DNA of 32,281 bases, from positions 1-32,281 of the IMG/VR virus record IMGVR_UViG_3300044846_003029. One strand, written 5' to 3'. Each line of letters starts with the position of its first letter. Position 1 is the first letter of the stretch. The stretch comes from a virus. The notes below the pieces were generated by a model that searched no databases, was not told where the DNA came from, and saw only the letters and a list, made by a program, of their open reading frames with translations. Made by a program: the position numbers and the translations under genes. This document shows positions 2,386 through 31,546 of the stretch, piece by piece.

Positions 2386-2703
2386 ATGAATTTTGAAATG
2401 ACGATAGAGGACTTTAGACAAGACAAACACAAAAGTTTTACAAAACTTGTGATCAAAGGTGTTAATTCTACTATAGATGGTGAATATACAATCAAAGAAA
2501 TGGCAAACTTTGGTAATGGTTTTTGGTTTTATACTAATGAAGCTCACACTTTAATCGGTTATGCACCTATGACAAAAGGTCAATCTGTTGACGGTTGGGA
2601 TGTTACATTCTTTAGAAATAGAACTGAGTTGAGAGTAACATACAAGTCAAACAAAAACTATATGGAAAAAAGAATCCAGGTTGATAAATTTTATTTTATC
2701 TAA
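2386..2703 (+). CDS. Unknown 105-residue protein
   Basis: No family is recognised. The sequence looks like a small mixed alpha/beta domain: a charged N-terminus, alternating hydrophobic strands (TKLVIKG, FWFYTNEA, WDVTFFRN, ELRVTYKS) and a basic tail ending in DKFYFI. It is driven by its own host-type promoter, whose -7 box ends 4 bases before the ATG. Its TAA stop is the TAA of the TAACG that opens the first hairpin site, just as in the first complete downstream unit, so it may be the remains of a further cassette. Its 5' flank matches its 3' flank only weakly, however. Confidence 0.65.
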   Translation: MNFEMTIEDFRQDKHKSFTKLVIKGVNSTIDGEYTIKEMANFGNGFWFYTNEAHTLIGYAPMTKGQSVDGWDVTFFRNRTELRVTYKSNKNYMEKRIQVDKFYFI

Positions 2704-2788
2704 CGATTGGGTGTATGAGAAGGTTTACTTAGATGGAATTTCAAATTACCACAACTATTGATAGCAAACTTTCTTATACGCCTTGTTA
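2701..2788 (+). repeat. attC-like hairpin site A (88 bp)
   Basis: Opens with TAAC, then a 5-base bulge GATTG, then the arm GGTGTATGAG..., which pairs (with G-U type changes) with CTTATACGCC, then TT and GTTA. The architecture is the same as sites B-E, but the hairpin top is longer: GGTTTACT pairs imperfectly with AGCAAACT. It marks the left edge of the five-unit array. Confidence 0.7.
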
Positions 2789-2830
2789 CCAACAGTACGG
2801 ATTATTAATATAAAACTTAAATAAAATAAA

Positions 2831-3052
2831 ATGGAAAAGAAAATCGAAAACATTGAGGATATTTGTTTAGTATATGATTATACTGGTGACACTAATAATG
2901 TTTATGTAAGAGTTTCAAAAGTTCACGAAGTAGATGAAAATGTTTATCTTAAAATACAGAACCCTGTTGTGAATAAAGGGTTACTTCAATATCAACATAA
3001 AGATTTATGTGGTACTGGTTGGGATGAGGGTGAAAAAAAATATTGTTTATAA
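2831..3052 (+). CDS. Cassette 1 product, unknown 73-residue acidic protein
   Basis: The only gene of unit 1. The sequence shows short strands (DICLVYDYTG, NVYVRVSKV, VYLKIQNP) and two Cys near the end (LCGTG, YCL), suggesting a small beta-rich fold. No family is recognised. The ORF's stop codon TAA is itself the first three bases of the TAAC of hairpin site B, a very tight packing of gene and site. The leader is A-rich with no Shine-Dalgarno and no clear TAnnTTTG box, so it may be read from upstream. Confidence 0.6.
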   Translation: MEKKIENIEDICLVYDYTGDTNNVYVRVSKVHEVDENVYLKIQNPVVNKGLLQYQHKDLCGTGWDEGEKKYCL

Positions 3053-3097
3053 CGTCTGATGATAAACAATCGTTTTAATGTTGTTTATCATTTGTTA
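3050..3097 (+). repeat. attC-like hairpin site B (48 bp)
   Basis: TAAC-GTCTG-ATGATAAACAA-TCGTTTTAATG-TTGTTTATCAT-TT-GTTA. The 11-bp inner stem is perfect, the 11-base loop is identical to those of C, D and E, and the 5/2 asymmetric internal loop is shared by A, B, D and E. Nearly the same as site E. Confidence 0.85.
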
Positions 3098-3119
3098 TGT
3101 GTATGTAAATTAATTTTTA

Positions 3120-3127
3120 TACCTTTG
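3120..3127 (+). promoter_or_regulatory. -7 box TACCTTTG inside cassette 2
   Basis: A TAnnTTTG match lies 13 bases before the ATG at 3141, carried within the cassette itself. The -33 TTG is not at standard spacing (nearest about 25 bases), so this is only a candidate. Confidence 0.4.
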
Positions 3128-3140
3128 AAAAAAAAATATT

Positions 3141-3434
3141 ATGACAACAAGAGAAATTTATTTTAAGAACTTAGTTTTTTGTGATTTACCAATGGGTTTG
3201 GTCGGCTATACCTACAAAGATAAGGATGGTGTAATTCAAATTGGTAAAGATGTTTGTTTGGAATTACGGACAGATGAGATTACTGTTGAAAAATCTGTTG
3301 AAATTATGGAAGAAATTGAAAAGACTGATGGATTTATGTTTTGGAATAACTCACCAGAAGGAGAAGAATTTTTCAAAAGTAATTGGGATGTAATTGGTAA
3401 ATCACTTGTGAGAATGGTTTTAAATCAAAAATAA
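3141..3434 (+). CDS. Cassette 2 product, unknown 97-residue protein
   Basis: A soluble, acidic small protein. An N-terminal beta-like part (REIYFKNLVFCDLPMGLVGYTYKDKDG) is followed by a helical part rich in Glu (ITVEKSVEIMEEIEK) and a C-terminal amphipathic helix. I recognise no domain. It is the only gene of unit 2, whose two ends match over 10 bases. A 23-base AT-rich stretch separates its stop from hairpin site C. Confidence 0.6.
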   Translation: MTTREIYFKNLVFCDLPMGLVGYTYKDKDGVIQIGKDVCLELRTDEITVEKSVEIMEEIEKTDGFMFWNNSPEGEEFFKSNWDVIGKSLVRMVLNQK

Positions 3435-3457
3435 TATAAAAATTAATTTATTACACA

Positions 3458-3505
3458 TAACGGTTGAGTGTAAAAAATCGTTTTAATGTTTTTTATACGC
3501 TGTTA
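3458..3505 (+). repeat. attC-like hairpin site C (48 bp)
   Basis: TAAC-GGTTG-AGTGTAAAAAA-TCGTTTTAATG-TTTTTTATACGCT-GTTA. The right arm has a two-base difference from site D, but the total length stays at 48. The flanks TACACA (left) and GCAGTA (right) belong to different cassettes. Confidence 0.85.
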
Positions 3506-3516
3506 GCAGTATGTAT

Positions 3517-3524
3517 TATTTTTG
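3517..3524 (+). promoter_or_regulatory. -7 box TATTTTTG inside cassette 3
   Basis: A TAnnTTTG match lies 25 bases before the ATG at 3550. In such AT-rich sequence the match alone is weak evidence. Confidence 0.3.
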
Positions 3525-3549
3525 TTTTACCTTAAATAAAAAATAGATT

Positions 3550-3693
3550 ATGACTTGGTTAGTATATGAAAACGCAGACGAAGCGACACAAATATTTGTG
3601 GGTGTATTATTAATATTGGCTATAACATTTGTTATTGGTGCTAATATATATTTTTGGATTTGCGATAAAATAAAAAACTCAAAACAAAAATAA
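3550..3693 (+). CDS. Cassette 3 product, 47-residue single-pass membrane protein
   Basis: ATG at 3550, TAA at 3691-3693. A short acidic N-terminus (MTWLVYENADEATQ) is followed by one clear transmembrane helix at about residues 15-37 (IFVGVLLILAITFVIGANIYFW) and a basic tail (DKIKNSKQK), so the topology is probably N-out/C-in. It is the only gene of unit 3, whose two ends match 10/10. Small membrane proteins are common cargo of integron cassettes and of phage accessory loci. Function unknown. Confidence 0.7.
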   Translation: MTWLVYENADEATQIFVGVLLILAITFVIGANIYFWICDKIKNSKQK

Positions 3694-3702
3694 TATTACT
3701 GC

Positions 3703-3750
3703 TAACGGTTGAGTGTAAAAAATCGTTTTAATGTTTTTTACACTTTGTTA
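3703..3750 (+). repeat. attC-like hairpin site D (48 bp)
   Basis: TAAC-GGTTG-AGTGTAAAAAA-TCGTTTTAATG-TTTTTTACACT-TT-GTTA, with a perfect 11-bp inner stem. The left part is the same as in site C. Confidence 0.85.
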
Positions 3751-3794
3751 TACACAGTCAAAAATTATTTATAAACAAATTAAAATCACTTGAT

Positions 3795-3989
3795 ATGGAA
3801 ATTACAAAAGAAATGATTGAAAAGGAACTTGGATATGAGATTAATAAATTCAAGTTAGAACCACTTTATAAAGATGGTGAATGTATTGGATTAAATGTTA
3901 AAGTTGAACCGAAGAAGAAACTTGAATTTATTAATACTACGATAACTATTGGTAAAACAAGTGATTTTAATACCGATGAAAAAGAATAA
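3795..3989 (+). CDS. Cassette 4 product, unknown 64-residue protein
   Basis: A small lysine- and glutamate-rich protein: an N-terminal helix (ITKEMIEKELGYEI), then two beta-like stretches (CIGLNVKVEPKK, FINTTITIG) and an acidic tail. No family is recognised. It is the only gene of unit 4, whose ends GTTATACACA and TGTGTATAAC are perfect reverse complements. No clear promoter of its own. Confidence 0.55.
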   Translation: MEITKEMIEKELGYEINKFKLEPLYKDGECIGLNVKVEPKKKLEFINTTITIGKTSDFNTDEKE

Positions 3990-4003
3990 TTTTTTATTGT
4001 GTA

Positions 4004-4051
4004 TAACGTCCGATGATAAACAATCGTTTTAATGTTGTTTATCATTTGTTA
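4004..4051 (+). repeat. attC-like hairpin site E (48 bp)
   Basis: TAAC-GTCCG-ATGATAAACAA-TCGTTTTAATG-TTGTTTATCAT-TT-GTTA. It differs from site B by one base in the left bulge. The outer flanks differ completely from those of B and match cassette 4 on the left and cassette 5 on the right. Confidence 0.85.
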
Positions 4052-4068
4052 TGTTCAGTTTTTATTTG

Positions 4069-4076
4069 TATATTTG
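4069..4076 (+). promoter_or_regulatory. -7 box TATATTTG inside cassette 5
   Basis: A TAnnTTTG match 16 bases before the ATG at 4093. It overlaps an in-frame upstream ATG (4051) that would code through the promoter, which argues for the later start. Confidence 0.45.
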
Positions 4077-4092
4077 TAAAAAAATAATTATT

Positions 4093-4266
4093 ATGGAAAG
4101 AACATTTAATAAAAAAGAAGTTGAAGAAATGTGTAAACAATCCTATATGAGAGGAATGAGTATTCAACACGACACAATGACAAAAAAGAAAATGAAACCA
4201 CCAAAGGTTTTTGTTGAATGGGTAAAACAACTTATTGATGAATGTCCAGTTGGTAAATTCAAATAA
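4093..4266 (+). CDS. Cassette 5 product, unknown 57-residue basic protein
   Basis: ATG 4093 is chosen because the promoter box lies upstream of it; an earlier in-frame ATG at 4051 begins inside hairpin site E. The protein is helical and charged (NKKEVEEMCKQSYMRGM, TKKKMKPPKVFVEWVKQLIDE), with the look of many small phage proteins that begin MERTFNKKEVEEM. No function is known to me. It is the last cassette, next to the recombinase; its 5' end GTTATGTTCA matches TGAATATAAC (4271-4280) in 9 of 10 positions. Confidence 0.6.
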   Translation: MERTFNKKEVEEMCKQSYMRGMSIQHDTMTKKKMKPPKVFVEWVKQLIDECPVGKFK

Positions 4267-4270
4267 AAAT

Positions 4271-4332
4271 TGAATATAACTAGATTATATCAACACCTAC
4301 CCAAAAACCCTCTATAAAACAACGTTTTAAAG
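4271..4332 (+). other. Degenerate end site (attI candidate) between array and recombinase
   Basis: TGAATATAAC (4271-4280) is the expected left end of a sixth site, and CGTTTTAA (4323-4330) echoes the CGTTTTAATG loop of sites B-E. Between them no 11-bp inner stem is seen. It may be a decayed site or the primary attachment site of the array. Confidence 0.35.
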
Positions 4333-5133
4333 ATGAATAAGACAAATTATTACGAAATTTGTAATCAAAAATTGAAGTATTTAAACTATTCAGATAGGAC
4401 AATAAAGTCCTATCTTTTTTATATAAAACAATTTTTGGATAATACTAAAATACCACCAACCAGACTAAAATCCGATGATTTCCAGTCCTATTTGGATCAG
4501 TATGGTTTTAAGTCTGTGTCACAACAAAACCAGGTTATAAACTCCATTAGGTTTTTATATAAATTTGGTTTGGAAAAGAAATACGACAAAGTAAGTTTCA
4601 AAAGACCAAAATCGGAAAAGAAACTACCTGTTGTTATTGATGGTGAATACATCAAAGAACGATTATCAAAAATTGAAAACCTAAAACACAAAACAATACT
4701 TACAATAACATATTCTGTTGGGTTAAGGGTGTCTGAGGTTATAAATCTAAAAATTGAGGATATTGACCCTAAAAGAATGGTAATATATATTAAAAACGCA
4801 AAAGGTAGAAAGGACCGGATTGTACCTCTATCACAAACTGTATTAGAATTATTAAGAAATTATTTCATACAATATAAACCAAAAGAATACTTGTTTAACG
4901 GACAAAATTCATTACAATATAGTTCAAATAGTTGTAATAAGATTGTTAAAAAATATTTGGGAGAACAATATCATATTCATCAGTTACGACATTCTTGTTT
5001 CACAAATCTTTTAGAATCAGGTTGTGATCTGAGAATCATCCAGAAAATTGCAGGACATAGCAATGTTAAAACTACTGAAATATATACCCATGTCTCAAAT
5101 CAAATGTTAAGTAAAGTGAAATTACCAATTTAA
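4333..5133 (+). CDS. Tyrosine recombinase (compact Xer/integrase type) beside the cassette array
   Basis: A 266-residue protein with an N-terminal SAM-like core-binding domain (about 1-90) and a catalytic domain carrying the full active site: R132 in GLRVSE, K157 in AKGRKD, H216-x2-R219 in HQLRH, H242 in GHSN and nucleophile Y251 in EIYTHV. The stretch RHSCFTNLLESGCDLRIIQ...TTEIYTHV resembles both XerC/D and IntI enzymes. Between the second and third catalytic patches (about 165-214) there is no room for the extra helical insertion of integron integrases, and the length is below the 310-340 usual for IntI. It reads in the same direction as the cassettes, as downstream neighbour. Likely substrate: the hairpin sites; alternatives are phage genome integration or dimer resolution. 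Confidence 0.9.
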   Translation: MNKTNYYEICNQKLKYLNYSDRTIKSYLFYIKQFLDNTKIPPTRLKSDDFQSYLDQYGFKSVSQQNQVINSIRFLYKFGLEKKYDKVSFKRPKSEKKLPVVIDGEYIKERLSKIENLKHKTILTITYSVGLRVSEVINLKIEDIDPKRMVIYIKNAKGRKDRIVPLSQTVLELLRNYFIQYKPKEYLFNGQNSLQYSSNSCNKIVKKYLGEQYHIHQLRHSCFTNLLESGCDLRIIQKIAGHSNVKTTEIYTHVSNQMLSKVKLPI

Positions 5134-9724: not shown

Positions 9725-10676
9725 ACAAATTCGGAAACGTCCGAAATCGTTCTTTGAAAATTTAGATTATCCTTTCAGGAGTACCAAGAGTGTCGGTGAC
9801 ATTATCCACCGAGTAAATGACAGAAAGTTCGCAGCTTAAGGAAAACTGATAAAGATATTGGGCCGTGTATAGTCCATAAAATAAACTACGAAAGTAGGAT
9901 AAAGTGAATCAGAAGTGTAACTGATTTGCGTCTTGGGAAACCGAGGTCGAGTACACAAGCGGGATACCGTTTAATCTTTAGTACCGAGGGCGACGCTGTA
10001 GGGAAAGTGGTTAGATGATTGGGCGATGTGGGTCGTCTGATTGAGGTGGGAACACCAATAGGAATAACCCGTAGGAATTTTGCAAAAAATGTGGTTATCC
10101 AATCATATTATTGCGAGTTCCAATATTAAAGGAGACTTAAAACCGAAAGGTATGTTGATGTACAGGTGGTGCTGTTATTAACCTTGACCGTTCCCCACCA
10201 AGGGATTGATCACGAAGTAGTCTTAAAATATGGAGATGGGGACATTTCAGAGAGTAGTTGAGTATCGGGTCGCTCAAAAGGTGACTTGGCTCGGTTGGCG
10301 GACCACTACTTTCACAATCCACGACACATAACTTATGGAAACTATTAATTCCCAAATTAAAAAGATCATTAAGGAAAAGTGTCCGTCAGGTCTAGTTGAA
10401 AGGTGACTACTTAGTCGTGAGCTGTTCACGGCACACAAGGATCCCAAGTCTGAGTGTAATTTTACCAAAGACCTCTAATCCCGCAAGGACGAGCTGGGGA
10501 GGCATCCTCGGAGAGAGTTGAGTAATGAGAGAGTAGATTAGACCTCAAGGAGTGGTTCACCTAAATAACCGTCACTGAGAAATACTTCTCAAAAGGAAGT
10601 GGATAGGAGTAGAAACAATAATGACTCTAAAGGTTCTCAATAAAAACTGTAATCTCAGGTTTTATTTTTACATATA
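9725..10676 (+). ncRNA. Giant structured non-coding RNA (GOLLD/ROOL-like candidate)
   Basis: About 950 bases without a credible ORF, richer in G and C than all surrounding coding DNA, starting at a strong promoter and running into a tRNA-like end and a terminator. Many local hairpins are visible: TTCGGA-AACG-TCCGAA (9730-9745), TCGGTG/CACCGA (9793-9812), CTAC-GAAA-GTAG (9886-9897), AATCAG/CTGATT (9907-9926), GGTG-GGAA-CACC (10045-10056), ACC-GAAA-GGT (10142-10151), GGTGG/CCACC (10165-10199), CGTGA/TCACG (10416-10430) and ACTTC/GAAGT (10584-10600). Three of these are closed by GNRA tetraloops. Known giant phage RNAs of this size (GOLLD, ROOL) also lie next to tRNA genes. Class membership is inference; the function of those classes is unsettled. 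Confidence 0.75.
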
Positions 10677-13567: not shown

Positions 13568-13572
13568 TACAG

Positions 13573-13973
13573 TGGAGGTGGAGGGGTTCGAACCCTCGTC
13601 CATAACATCCTGTCAGATAAGGACTACACGTTTAGGTTAACATTTTCTAATGTTCCAAAATAGTTGGTTATTTAAAATCCGATCCAACAACGGATACAAT
13701 CAAATGACCCCCTGATTGTTAGGGGTTTGTTTCTTTTCGGGTAGAAACCACACCTTAAAGGACTTCTGTTGCTAGGTTATGTGTCCACCGACCCCCCGTT
13801 TCCGTAAACTTCTTAAGCTACAGTAACATCAGAAGTACGGATTAATCCGATAGCTTCCATTTTGTTTAGCACATTGCCAGTTGTTTTTCTGAATCAGTTT
13901 TTAAGGAGATTAATTCAGTCCCCACGTGCCCTTATTCTTCAGCCGATACCTGTCAAATCCAAAAAACACCCCC
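13573..13973 (-). ncRNA. ssrA: Phage-encoded tmRNA
   Basis: The minus strand shows the complete one-piece tmRNA. The 5' acceptor GGGGGTG pairs with CACCTCC at the 3' end, including the G3-U70 pair that alanyl-tRNA synthetase needs. GGATTTGACAGG follows near the 5' end, and the T arm GAGGG-TTCGAAC-CCCTC near the 3' end, then discriminator A. CCA is not encoded. A tag frame bounded by TAA codons runs over 13870-13813. With resume codon GCT it would give AIGLIRTSDVTVA-stop, an ending unlike the usual ALAA. The 401-nt length is normal. Role: rescue of stalled ribosomes and tagging of their products. Confidence 0.93.
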
Positions 13974-21374: not shown

Positions 21375-22371
21375 TGAAAAAAAGTTACAACTAATTAGTT
21401 ATGGGTTAAAACCATCTACGGTAACAAAATTAAATGAATCACAAGTTGATGCTCTTTACCAAAGATTATCTGAGTCTAAAAAAGAAACAAAAGAAGATTG
21501 GACGAAAAAAGTTAGTCAAGAAACTGAGTATGTTGCACCTATAGCATCAGTTTCAAGTGGTAAAGGATTACAAGTACCTCCACCAACAGATCCATCAAAG
21601 AAAAGTATGATATCTGTGGCCGGTGGTAATGTTAAAGTAACTCAAGCTGAAAGTGAAATGACGGAGGGTGAATTAGATGAAAAATTTGAATCAAAATCAC
21701 AACAAGGTTTAATGTGGGCTAGATGTAAAAAATCTACAGGAGAACAAAAGGAAAAATGGTGTAAATTAGCAAAAGAGTTTTCTAAATCAACTACTAAAAA
21801 AGATTATGAAAAAATGCCTGAGAAAAAACATCCTGAAAAAACAGTTAAAAAACTGAAAGAAGAGGGTGGATACATGGATATGATTGGTAAAGCTTTTAAC
21901 AAAAATATGCAAAACAAAATCGCCGATATTAAACCAGGGTTAAAATGGGAAAGTGAATTAGAAAAACAATTTTCACAGATTATTGAAAGTACAATTTTCC
22001 CAAAAATGACTAAAAAAGATTTTATTAAAACTTTAATGGAATCTCCTGAAGTGGCCCCTGAAAAGGAAAGAACAAAAGAAAAAGAAAGGGAAACTGAAAA
22101 AGAAAGAAGAAGAAAGGATGAAGATGATCCATTCAGACCTGGTAGAAGAAACAAACCAAAACCAGCTCCTAAAGCCGATACTGAAGTTGCACCTGAAAAG
22201 GAAAGAACAAAAGAAATAGAAAGAGAGACTGAAAAAGAAAGACGAAAAAAAGATCAAGACGATCCATTTAGACCTGGTAAAAGAAACAAACCGAAACCAG
22301 CACCTAAAGCGGAAACAAATGAAGGATCACTACCTGATTGGTTATCTTCAAGATCAATAGGTATTAAATAA
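21364..22371 (+). CDS. Basic structural protein with DUF3008-like segment and two 45-residue repeats
   Basis: 335 residues from ATG 21364, which lies inside the end of the preceding gene (a TTG at 21346 is rejected). A middle segment (about 105-155, KFESKSQQGLMWARCKKSTGEQKEKWCKLAKEFS) resembles DUF3008-type proteins of phages and proteobacteria. The C-terminal third holds two tandem 45-residue repeats (22048-22182 and 22183-22317) that start EVAPEKERTKE and end KPKPAPKA, very charged and probably extended. L-x-E-S sites (KLNESQ, RLSESK, LMESPE) suggest processing in the prohead. Exact role unknown. Confidence 0.65.
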   Translation: MKNSEKKLQLISYGLKPSTVTKLNESQVDALYQRLSESKKETKEDWTKKVSQETEYVAPIASVSSGKGLQVPPPTDPSKKSMISVAGGNVKVTQAESEMTEGELDEKFESKSQQGLMWARCKKSTGEQKEKWCKLAKEFSKSTTKKDYEKMPEKKHPEKTVKKLKEEGGYMDMIGKAFNKNMQNKIADIKPGLKWESELEKQFSQIIESTIFPKMTKKDFIKTLMESPEVAPEKERTKEKERETEKERRRKDEDDPFRPGRRNKPKPAPKADTEVAPEKERTKEIERETEKERRKKDQDDPFRPGKRNKPKPAPKAETNEGSLPDWLSSRSIGIK

Positions 22372-30091: not shown

Positions 30092-31546
30092 ATGGATAAA
30101 AACAAAAATTTAGTTGAAGAAGCTATCATCCAAATAAAGAATTTGGAAGAAGCTATCTCTGAAAATGCAAAAGGAATACTTGAGTCAACTATGGCTGAAG
30201 AAATCAAAGAACTTGTAAAAGAATCTCTTAACGAACAAGGTGATGACGAAGAAGAGGTTACACCAGATGCTGAAGTTGAAGATCTAATGGGTGATGTTGA
30301 ACCAATGGACGATGTTGATCCAATGGATGATGAAGAACCTGTAGATGGAGCTGACGCTGATAATGTTGATCTTGATGACGAAGAACCTGTTATTGATTTA
30401 ACACAAGAAGAAAATCCTGAAGAGGTTTTACGAGTGTTTCAATTGATGGGACCTGAAGACGAAATTATCGTTAAAAAGGATGAGTCAGGAAATATCAACT
30501 TAAAAGACAACAAAAACAACACAGAGTATATGATAGTAGGTGAATCAGAAGAAGAATACTACGAATCTGACATGTGGGAGAATGACGATGACTTAATGGA
30601 ATTTGAAGACGAAGATGAAGATATTACATCAATTATTGATGATGTATTTTCTGAATCATATGATGAAGAAGAAGCCGATGAAGAAGTCGTTTATGAAATC
30701 GAAATGGATGAGGAAGAAGAAGAATACTACGAATCTGACATGTGGGAGAATGACGATGACTTAATGGAATTTGAAGACGAAGATGAAGATGAAGATGAAT
30801 CTTATGATGAATACATGGAAGATTCTATGGATCTTGATGCCGTTATGGAATCTAAATCTATCAAACCTAAAGGAGTCGGAATCGGAAAACCTAAAAAAGT
30901 AGATTTCAAACCTAACACAGAAGGTGGATTTAAAGTAGTTAAGAAAAAAGCCAATAAAACTATGGGTACAGGTAAAGCTAAATTTACTTACAAAGATGGT
31001 GAAAATCTTGACGGAAAAATGAAACCTGTAAAAGGTAAGAAAGCTGAAACTAAAGAAGCCGCTCGTACATTAGGTAACGGGTCTAATTTTAGAAAAGGTG
31101 GATTACCAAAACCAAGAGCACATTCAAAGTTCAATACAGCAATCAAAGAAAGTACAACTCAAGAAGTACAAATATTAAGAGAGAAAAATGAAGAATACAG
31201 AAAAGCTCTTAATGTATTTAGAGACAAACTTAATGAAGTAGCTGTTTTCAACTCAAACTTGGCATACGCAACACGTTTGTTCACAGAACATACAACTAGT
31301 AAACAAGAAAAAATCAATATCTTAAAAAGATTTGATTCTGTTGAAACTTTGAAAGAATCTAAAAACTTGTATAAGTCAATAAAAGACGAATTAACAAATT
31401 CAAAAGCTCAACCAATGAACGAGTCAATTGAAAAAGTAATGAACAATACTCCTTCTAACGGTTCAGCAATTAACTTAATCGAGTCAAAAACTTACGAAAA
31501 TCCTCAATTCTTGAGAATGAAAGATTTAATGACAAAATTAAGATAA
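30092..31546 (+). CDS. Acidic scaffold-like protein (position of T4 gp22)
   Basis: 484 residues. Start: a helical segment (about 1-50). Middle: a very acidic region (about 50-270) that contains the 25-residue block EEEYYESDMWENDDDLMEFEDEDED twice, 56 residues apart; the DNA copies are identical over 76 bases. Then a basic Lys/Gly-rich stretch (about 275-345) and a C-terminal coiled coil (350-484). L/I-x-E-S sites are many. An acidic, helical, protease-sensitive protein between protease and capsid genes is what T4's main scaffold gp22 is; at 484 residues it is longer than gp22 (269). Confidence 0.7.
   Translation: MDKNKNLVEEAIIQIKNLEEAISENAKGILESTMAEEIKELVKESLNEQGDDEEEVTPDAEVEDLMGDVEPMDDVDPMDDEEPVDGADADNVDLDDEEPVIDLTQEENPEEVLRVFQLMGPEDEIIVKKDESGNINLKDNKNNTEYMIVGESEEEYYESDMWENDDDLMEFEDEDEDITSIIDDVFSESYDEEEADEEVVYEIEMDEEEEEYYESDMWENDDDLMEFEDEDEDEDESYDEYMEDSMDLDAVMESKSIKPKGVGIGKPKKVDFKPNTEGGFKVVKKKANKTMGTGKAKFTYKDGENLDGKMKPVKGKKAETKEAARTLGNGSNFRKGGLPKPRAHSKFNTAIKESTTQEVQILREKNEEYRKALNVFRDKLNEVAVFNSNLAYATRLFTEHTTSKQEKINILKRFDSVETLKESKNLYKSIKDELTNSKAQPMNESIEKVMNNTPSNGSAINLIESKTYENPQFLRMKDLMTKLR
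30547..30622 (+). repeat. 76-bp exact direct repeat, copy 1
   Basis: Identical to 30715-30790, offset 168 bp (56 codons), so in frame within the scaffold gene. Confidence 0.95.
30715..30790 (+). repeat. 76-bp exact direct repeat, copy 2
   Basis: Second copy of the 76-bp repeat starting at 30547. It is followed by further GAT/GAA codons, which is where the copies stop matching. Confidence 0.95.

Follow-up and report, generated by a model that had tools for sequence, protein, structure and literature searches.

The segment at 2701-5133 of the window, a term used here for the whole analysed stretch of 32,281 nucleotides, very probably represents a phage-encoded integron-like system with a complete array. 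Sequence comparison brought out its parts and their polarity, the folding bias of the sites, the matching ends and the exchange of the cassettes, and the missing IntI insertion of the adjacent tyrosine recombinase. The features of this segment are as follows.

2701..2788, + strand: attC-like site A, of an 88-nt class with another loop, first of the array, found by the hairpin scan
2789..3049, + strand: interior of cassette 1, ORF 2831-3052 (73 aa), ends matching 4/6, partly decayed
3050..3097, + strand: attC-like site B, 48 nt, loop TCGTTTTAATG at 3070-3080
3098..3457, + strand: interior of cassette 2, ORF 3141-3434 (97 aa), ends matching 6/6
3458..3505, + strand: attC-like site C, 48 nt, a chimera of two families joined at the loop
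3506..3702, + strand: interior of cassette 3, ORF ~3550-3693 (47 aa), ends matching 6/6
3703..3750, + strand: attC-like site D, 48 nt
3751..4003, + strand: interior of cassette 4, ORF 3795-3989 (64 aa), ends matching 6/6
4004..4051, + strand: attC-like site E, 48 nt
4052..4276, + strand: interior of cassette 5, ORF 4093-4266 (57 aa), ends matching 5/6
4277..4332, + strand: attI-like site, TAAC followed by TAGATTATATCAACACC..., directly 5' of the recombinase start
4333..5133, + strand: 266-aa tyrosine recombinase (Pfam PF00589, 4e-37, and PF13495), the proposed array integrase

The source record is a 32-kb virus fragment whose genes include those for terminase, portal, RNA ligase and a Clp-like protease. 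A GOLLD RNA (328 bits) occupies 10250-10661 on the plus strand of this tailed-phage fragment and is followed by tRNA-Met, and a tmRNA lies at 13570-13973 on the opposite, minus strand. The nearest TerL among cultured Bacteroidota phages was that of Flavobacterium phage immuto (28%), and the recombinase had no close relative in cultured phages, with a best identity of 41%. Elsewhere in the window, a tRNA match at 1-58 is cut by the window start, and a tRNA-like stretch (..GGTTCGAATCC..) at ~497-556 was left uncalled by ARAGORN. A 135-nt tandem repeat at 88% (22046-22315) and a large direct repeat with 76 identical nt placed 168 apart (30547-30790) both fall within long ORFs of the structural region.

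The original prediction described four sites of exactly 48 bp with one identical loop, and coordinates and letters of sites B-E confirmed both properties. Exact copies of the loop TCGTTTTAATG in the 32-kb record were confined to these four sites, and the control pattern and orientation of the loop gave no match in the same record. The asymmetric bulge of five left and two right bases proposed for B, D and E proved to be the usual geometry of the 48-nt class, although 5/1 and a few other spacings also occur. The special bulge ascribed to site C did not hold, as this site is a chimera of two hairpin families, with a left arm of the D type joined at the loop to a right arm (TTTTTTATACGC+T) of the kind usual in a 49-nt family. 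Such chimeric hairpins, in which arms of different families meet at the common loop, were seen at L024:2889, in L178 and at site C of the window. For site A, the left-hand DNA is common to the window and locus L123 up to TAACG, while the body is not. An Rfam scan returned no family covering the sites.

Viral contigs were scanned with TAACG, the loop and GTTA fixed and with no demand on the stem, which returned at least 118 stretches. Among the matches listed, 35 distinct 48-nt sites formed the covariation set, and 97.5% of their pairing cells were paired versus 71.7% after shuffling. Both sides had changed in 10/11 stem pairs of these 35 sites, and the covariation score was 0.648, compared with 0.149 for shuffled alignments (0/500) and at most 0.194 for slid ones; because the sites are related to one another, the shuffles overstate significance, whereas the slid control is free of that fault. 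The compensatory stem changes first noticed in the window thus recur as strong covariation in a larger alignment, and selection on shape, as had been supposed, was borne out by it. The stem of the 48-nt class is gapless, with 96.6% of the stem cells paired and extrahelical (bulged) L-stem bases absent. In 34% of the short sites, inner-stem 7-mers are common to the short and long site classes, which is suggestive only.

The fixed loop of the covariation set is partly due to selection by the pattern. The invariance is not an artefact, since recombinase-adjacent sites that were found by a loop-free scan displayed the same loop with few variants. The loop also closes units lacking an ORF, of the form GTTA-N5-TCGTTTTAATG-N5'-TAAC. 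These units are exactly 29 bp long in 30/31 distinct contexts, in a search that allowed arms of 3-9 nt, and their arms are fully complementary in 29/31 with many different 5-mers. Being found in both the 48-nt sites and the 29-bp units, the loop behaves as a modular cap for stems of two kinds. The 29-bp units (L320-L357, L091, L148 and L145) were often the last before attI or an attI-like end.

The cassettes between the hairpins carry matching ends, as had been predicted. The right flank of each site is complementary to the left flank of the next, with a mean run of 4.39 bases over 223 distinct cassettes, versus 0.95 after shuffling (maximum 1.18) and 0.93 when both flanks were taken from one site. 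At position 7 of the ends a G.T mismatch is conserved, after which pairing resumes at positions 8-11. Such matched ends are, as with integron cassettes, the mark of a former circle. The cargo of 112 cassette ORFs is mostly of unknown function, and some encode DNA methyltransferases and one a Lar-like restriction alleviation protein. A promoter of its own for each cassette (TAnnTTTG in the GTTA-ATG interval) was rejected, with only 42 matches in 219 cassettes and no clear position.

End matching is silent on which cassette owns a hairpin body, and ownership was assigned by comparing loci. The hairpin upstream of an ORF was kept with that ORF while the downstream hairpin differed in 5/6 informative pairs as well as between the window and L123, from a small total of about eight such pairs; in the contrary pair L083/L179 the other hairpin body is conserved, but its flank is non-matching. 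Whole blocks ending at TAAC or TAACG distinguish three near-identical phages, L143, L144 and L152. One cassette block of 960 bp, at 99.9% identity, stands beside the recombinase and attI in L143 and L144 and in the middle of the array in L152, with its breakpoint at TAAC. Spacer bases differ between otherwise identical cassettes. As comparison showed, the unit of movement runs from G through the spacer, hairpin body and GTTA to a flank, the ORF, a second flank and TAAC.

At the recombinase end of the array, the last cassette closes in a bare TAAC followed by TANNATATAT.., and across ~60 phage loci the 3' side of this junction is conserved and the 5' side variable. The conserved 3' sequence reads TAACTANNATATAT.., and an 856-bp block common to the window and L123 (99.5%) starts at TATAAC|TAGATTATATC. 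This putative attI is thus, as judged from the letters, the boundary of the array and adjoins the recombinase gene. The cassette comparison together with the bare TAAC at attI places the crossover at the TAAC to the left of each site; for the same reasons, a crossover at the right-hand GTTA was ruled out.

The displayed strand, TAACG..TTGTTA, gave the more stable fold in 217/240 sites of a scan that accepted G.T, and a symmetrical detection counting Watson-Crick pairs only found 201 G.T versus 33 A.C oppositions, counts in which the sites are related and hence are not independent events. When the array is turned over, it reads integrase, attI and cassettes and its crossover falls in the GTTA on the right, which identifies the displayed strand with the attC bottom strand, the recombining strand of integrons (PMC4792948). 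The cassette ORFs are inverted relative to this order: they lie on the displayed strand and face attI and the recombinase in a ratio of 155:1 in the recombinase loci and of 139:1 in the site-scan loci among the matches listed. The usual orientation of integron ORFs, pointing away from attI and to their own attC, was confirmed by the class 1 integron on p1658/97, where aadA1 lies on the attC top strand. Phage genes are mostly co-oriented with the recombinase, 127:20 before the array and 247:25 after it, and through their inversion the cassettes run in the direction of the phage transcript. This co-direction may be the reason for the inversion. The inverted cassettes suggest that phage transcripts, and not a promoter in the platform, provide for their expression. 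Their orientation would prevent a Pc promoter in the platform from driving them.

A protein search with the recombinase retrieved 220 viral relatives, of which 80 with identities of 53-99% were kept, on contigs of up to 362 kb. Among the matches listed from the site scan, six other contigs had a relative of the enzyme immediately 3' of sites. By the loop-blind scan, 315 sites were upstream of the recombinase on the same strand, 2 were downstream and 1 was on the opposite strand; the scan needs TAACG and a stem, so that site counts are biased in those features and unbiased in strand and position. Of the 61 recombinase loci with upstream DNA of 1.5 kb or more, 57 had at least one site, and up to 12, beside the gene; some of these contigs are near copies of each other, and the strict scan found no site in the remaining four. 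Many phage contigs carry sites with no recombinase in the stretch examined, and enzymes of the host or of other origin may therefore act on them as well.

Previous studies described I2 as a domain of 20 residues said to occur nowhere else, which is tied to the recombination of folded attC sites, accommodates the bulged attC bases and is considered necessary for handling extrahelical bases (PMC4792948). In the phage recombinases the interval from VGLRVSE to HxLRHS spans 93 residues (92-94 in 36/36 proteins) versus 140 in 12 true IntI, and this difference indicates that the IntI-specific insertion around patch III, I2, is absent from all 36. The IntI model TIGR02249 gave the scanned phage recombinases 141-157 bits against a cut-off of 265, their best NCBIfam score came from the XerA-like model NF040815 and stayed below its cut-off, and 199 viral loci contained no IntI-type protein, none of their ORFs fitting an IntI model better. 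In a quick tree the phage recombinases and those of four MAG contigs formed one clade (support 100) apart from IntI (support 100). An AlphaFold model of the recombinase (pLDDT 87) found its best PDB match in 2a3v, an integron integrase-attC complex, with a TM of 0.74. Recombination of the folded sites is not guaranteed for an enzyme lacking I2. The missing I2 and the missing bulges fit a recombinase adapted to bulge-free hairpins, possibly in a pre-I2 state.

In bacterial genomes the 48-nt class is rare, at 1/297 by pattern and 6/118 by a covariance model. Related recombinases without the insertion occur in bacteria and one archaeon near arrays of longer sites with the canonical ORF direction, and the phage-type direction was seen in a ratio of 3:23 in bacterial loci with related recombinases, where ORFs are thus mostly canonical. 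In the Bacteroidota loci L231, L236, L277, L282 and L240, chromosomal XerA-like recombinases lacking the IntI insertion stand near attC-like arrays on the opposite strand with canonical ORFs, and the attC-like sites near such Bacteroidota enzymes are mostly 126-129 nt long. A like arrangement of insertion-less recombinase and array was noticed in other phyla and one archaeon (L207/L208, L268, L279 and L229). Insertion-less XerA-like recombinases with arrays possibly constitute a wider integron class that IntI-based searches have missed.

An improbable account of the array is that of a CALIN, in which host integron integrases shuffle a cluster of ordinary attC sites and the neighbouring recombinase, a phage integrase or XerA-like resolvase, has no relation to them. 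Integron parts were reported in 2023 from 21 phages, mostly as attC clusters without integrase, and one of two sites tested from the Polaribacter phage P12002L recombined with IntI1 (PMC9892861). In P12002L, two sites of the same architecture as those described here flank a methyltransferase gene, and the tested sites are assumed to be those two. True IntI above the TIGR02249 cut-off is present in 21/61 sampled Bacteroidota genomes, and bacterial genomes contain rare members of the TCGTTTTAATG class. Against this account, the adjacency, strand and order of the recombinase are fixed across a phage-specific clade, and the conserved attI-like site between last cassette and recombinase coincides with the boundary of variation. 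In addition, none of 11 sampled Bacteroidota IntI genes (L297-L307; G093, G080, G076, G104 and others) had a detectable TAAC..GTTA array within the flanks examined, on which ground a bacterial host IntI was rejected as the driver.

It is also unlikely that the sites are double-stranded and Xer/dif-like, each composed of outer arm, central spacer and inner arm, with a hairpin shape that only reflects the inverted order of the arms. The lack of the IntI insertion, the top rank of the XerA-like model (below cut-off), the arm-spacer-arm build of each half site and the spacer bases that vary between otherwise identical cassettes all suit such sites, but a long paired stem and strand-specific wobble pairs have been kept that a double-stranded site would not need, and the cassette ends pair over ~10 bp across the circularised unit. 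A role for the hairpins in terminating transcription, or as mRNA elements separating small phage genes, with no link to recombination, is highly improbable. The hairpins do lie in the transcript, at a median of 14 nt after the stop codon and ~44 nt before the next ATG; yet sites B-E have no run of T after the stem, the outer ends of the cassettes match, blocks move with TAAC breakpoints, and the array ends in a recombinase with a fixed attI-like site. Neither outcome named beforehand as speaking against the original prediction was seen: covariation proved strong, and these hairpins do not serve as terminators behind unrelated genes.

For the favoured integron-like reading, a pathway can be proposed in which the 266-aa recombinase recombines folded single-stranded attC-like sites with the attI-like site upstream of its own gene. 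The strand TAACG..TTGTTA would fold when single-stranded, for example during phage replication. The recombinase would then bind the inner stem as well as the outer arms, which consist of TAAC plus 6 bp and are closed by pairing between the two complementary ends of one cassette; the 5/2 asymmetric spacer lies between arms and stem. Catalysis may consist of a single-strand exchange at the AAC core, the partner being either another site or attI, and the junction would be resolved by replication. New cassettes would enter beside the recombinase, and the route of their expression would presumably be the phage transcript.

The proposed system resembles integrons in its small single ORFs between attC-like hairpins, its end-complementary cassettes, an attI-like site by a tyrosine recombinase, the AAC core, the favouring of one strand for folding and the exchange of whole cassettes. 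It differs from them in a phage recombinase without I2, in ORFs inverted relative to the sites (155:1), in bulge-free 48-nt sites with a constant 11-nt loop, and in outer arms that pair over ~10 bp with a conserved G.T mismatch followed by further pairs. attC sites share only the 5'-AAC-3' at the crossover (PMC4792948). The likeness to attC drawn earlier therefore stands insofar as the sites behave like attC, but the suggestion of a new site class from a misfit to RYYYAAC/GTTRRRY does not, because the AAC core is present. The attI-like site, the absent IntI domain and the inversion of the cassettes went unremarked in the original prediction. The sites depart from the full consensus in that 64% of them carry T as the fifth base of the right box. 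The TAAC/GTTA core accompanies the conserved fold in sites picked by scans that required this core.

The phage integron parts known from earlier work likewise comprise attC-like sites and cassettes in phage genomes with methyltransferase cargo, but those were attributed to fragments or captures of bacterial integrons (PMC9892861), in contrast to the present phages, which have a recombinase clade with an attI-like site of its own and with as many as 12 sites in an array. Treponema integrons share the atypical gene direction, their integrase and cassettes running in one direction. In Treponema it is the integrase gene that has been turned round to read toward attI (PMC3607928), whereas in the phages the turned elements are the cassettes, whose ORFs point to attI and the recombinase. 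The phage enzymes are like XerA and XerH in length and in their closest NCBIfam model, NF040815, below its cut-off. XerA/XerH systems resolve a single double-stranded dif site, unlike the phage recombinase gene, which is tied to a cassette array with up to 12 hairpin sites. The literature searched, with preprints and most subscription papers outside its range, described neither inverted cassettes nor I2-less integrases with arrays in phages.

A bolder proposal, possible but doubtful as a joint claim, is that a separate phage integron lineage recombines bulge-free folded sites without I2, as a living pre-I2 step, and that the constant loop TCGTTTTAATG, which closes the inner stems of the 48-nt sites and replaces the gene in the 29-bp units, either arises from a dedicated hairpin-capping step or serves as its substrate. 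If the hairpin-capping reading is true, it could bear on the making of cassettes and attC sites.

These observations reveal a widespread phage recombinase that lacks I2 beside folded sites that lack the bulges I2 serves, and the lack of I2 explains why searches requiring IntI would miss these putative phage platforms. If the system is active, the evolution of single-strand recombination would become directly testable with natural enzymes, and phages would own gene-capture platforms whose cargo includes methyltransferases and restriction alleviation. The recombinase type and the cassette direction are what is new, and they may show how such gene-shuffling systems evolved.
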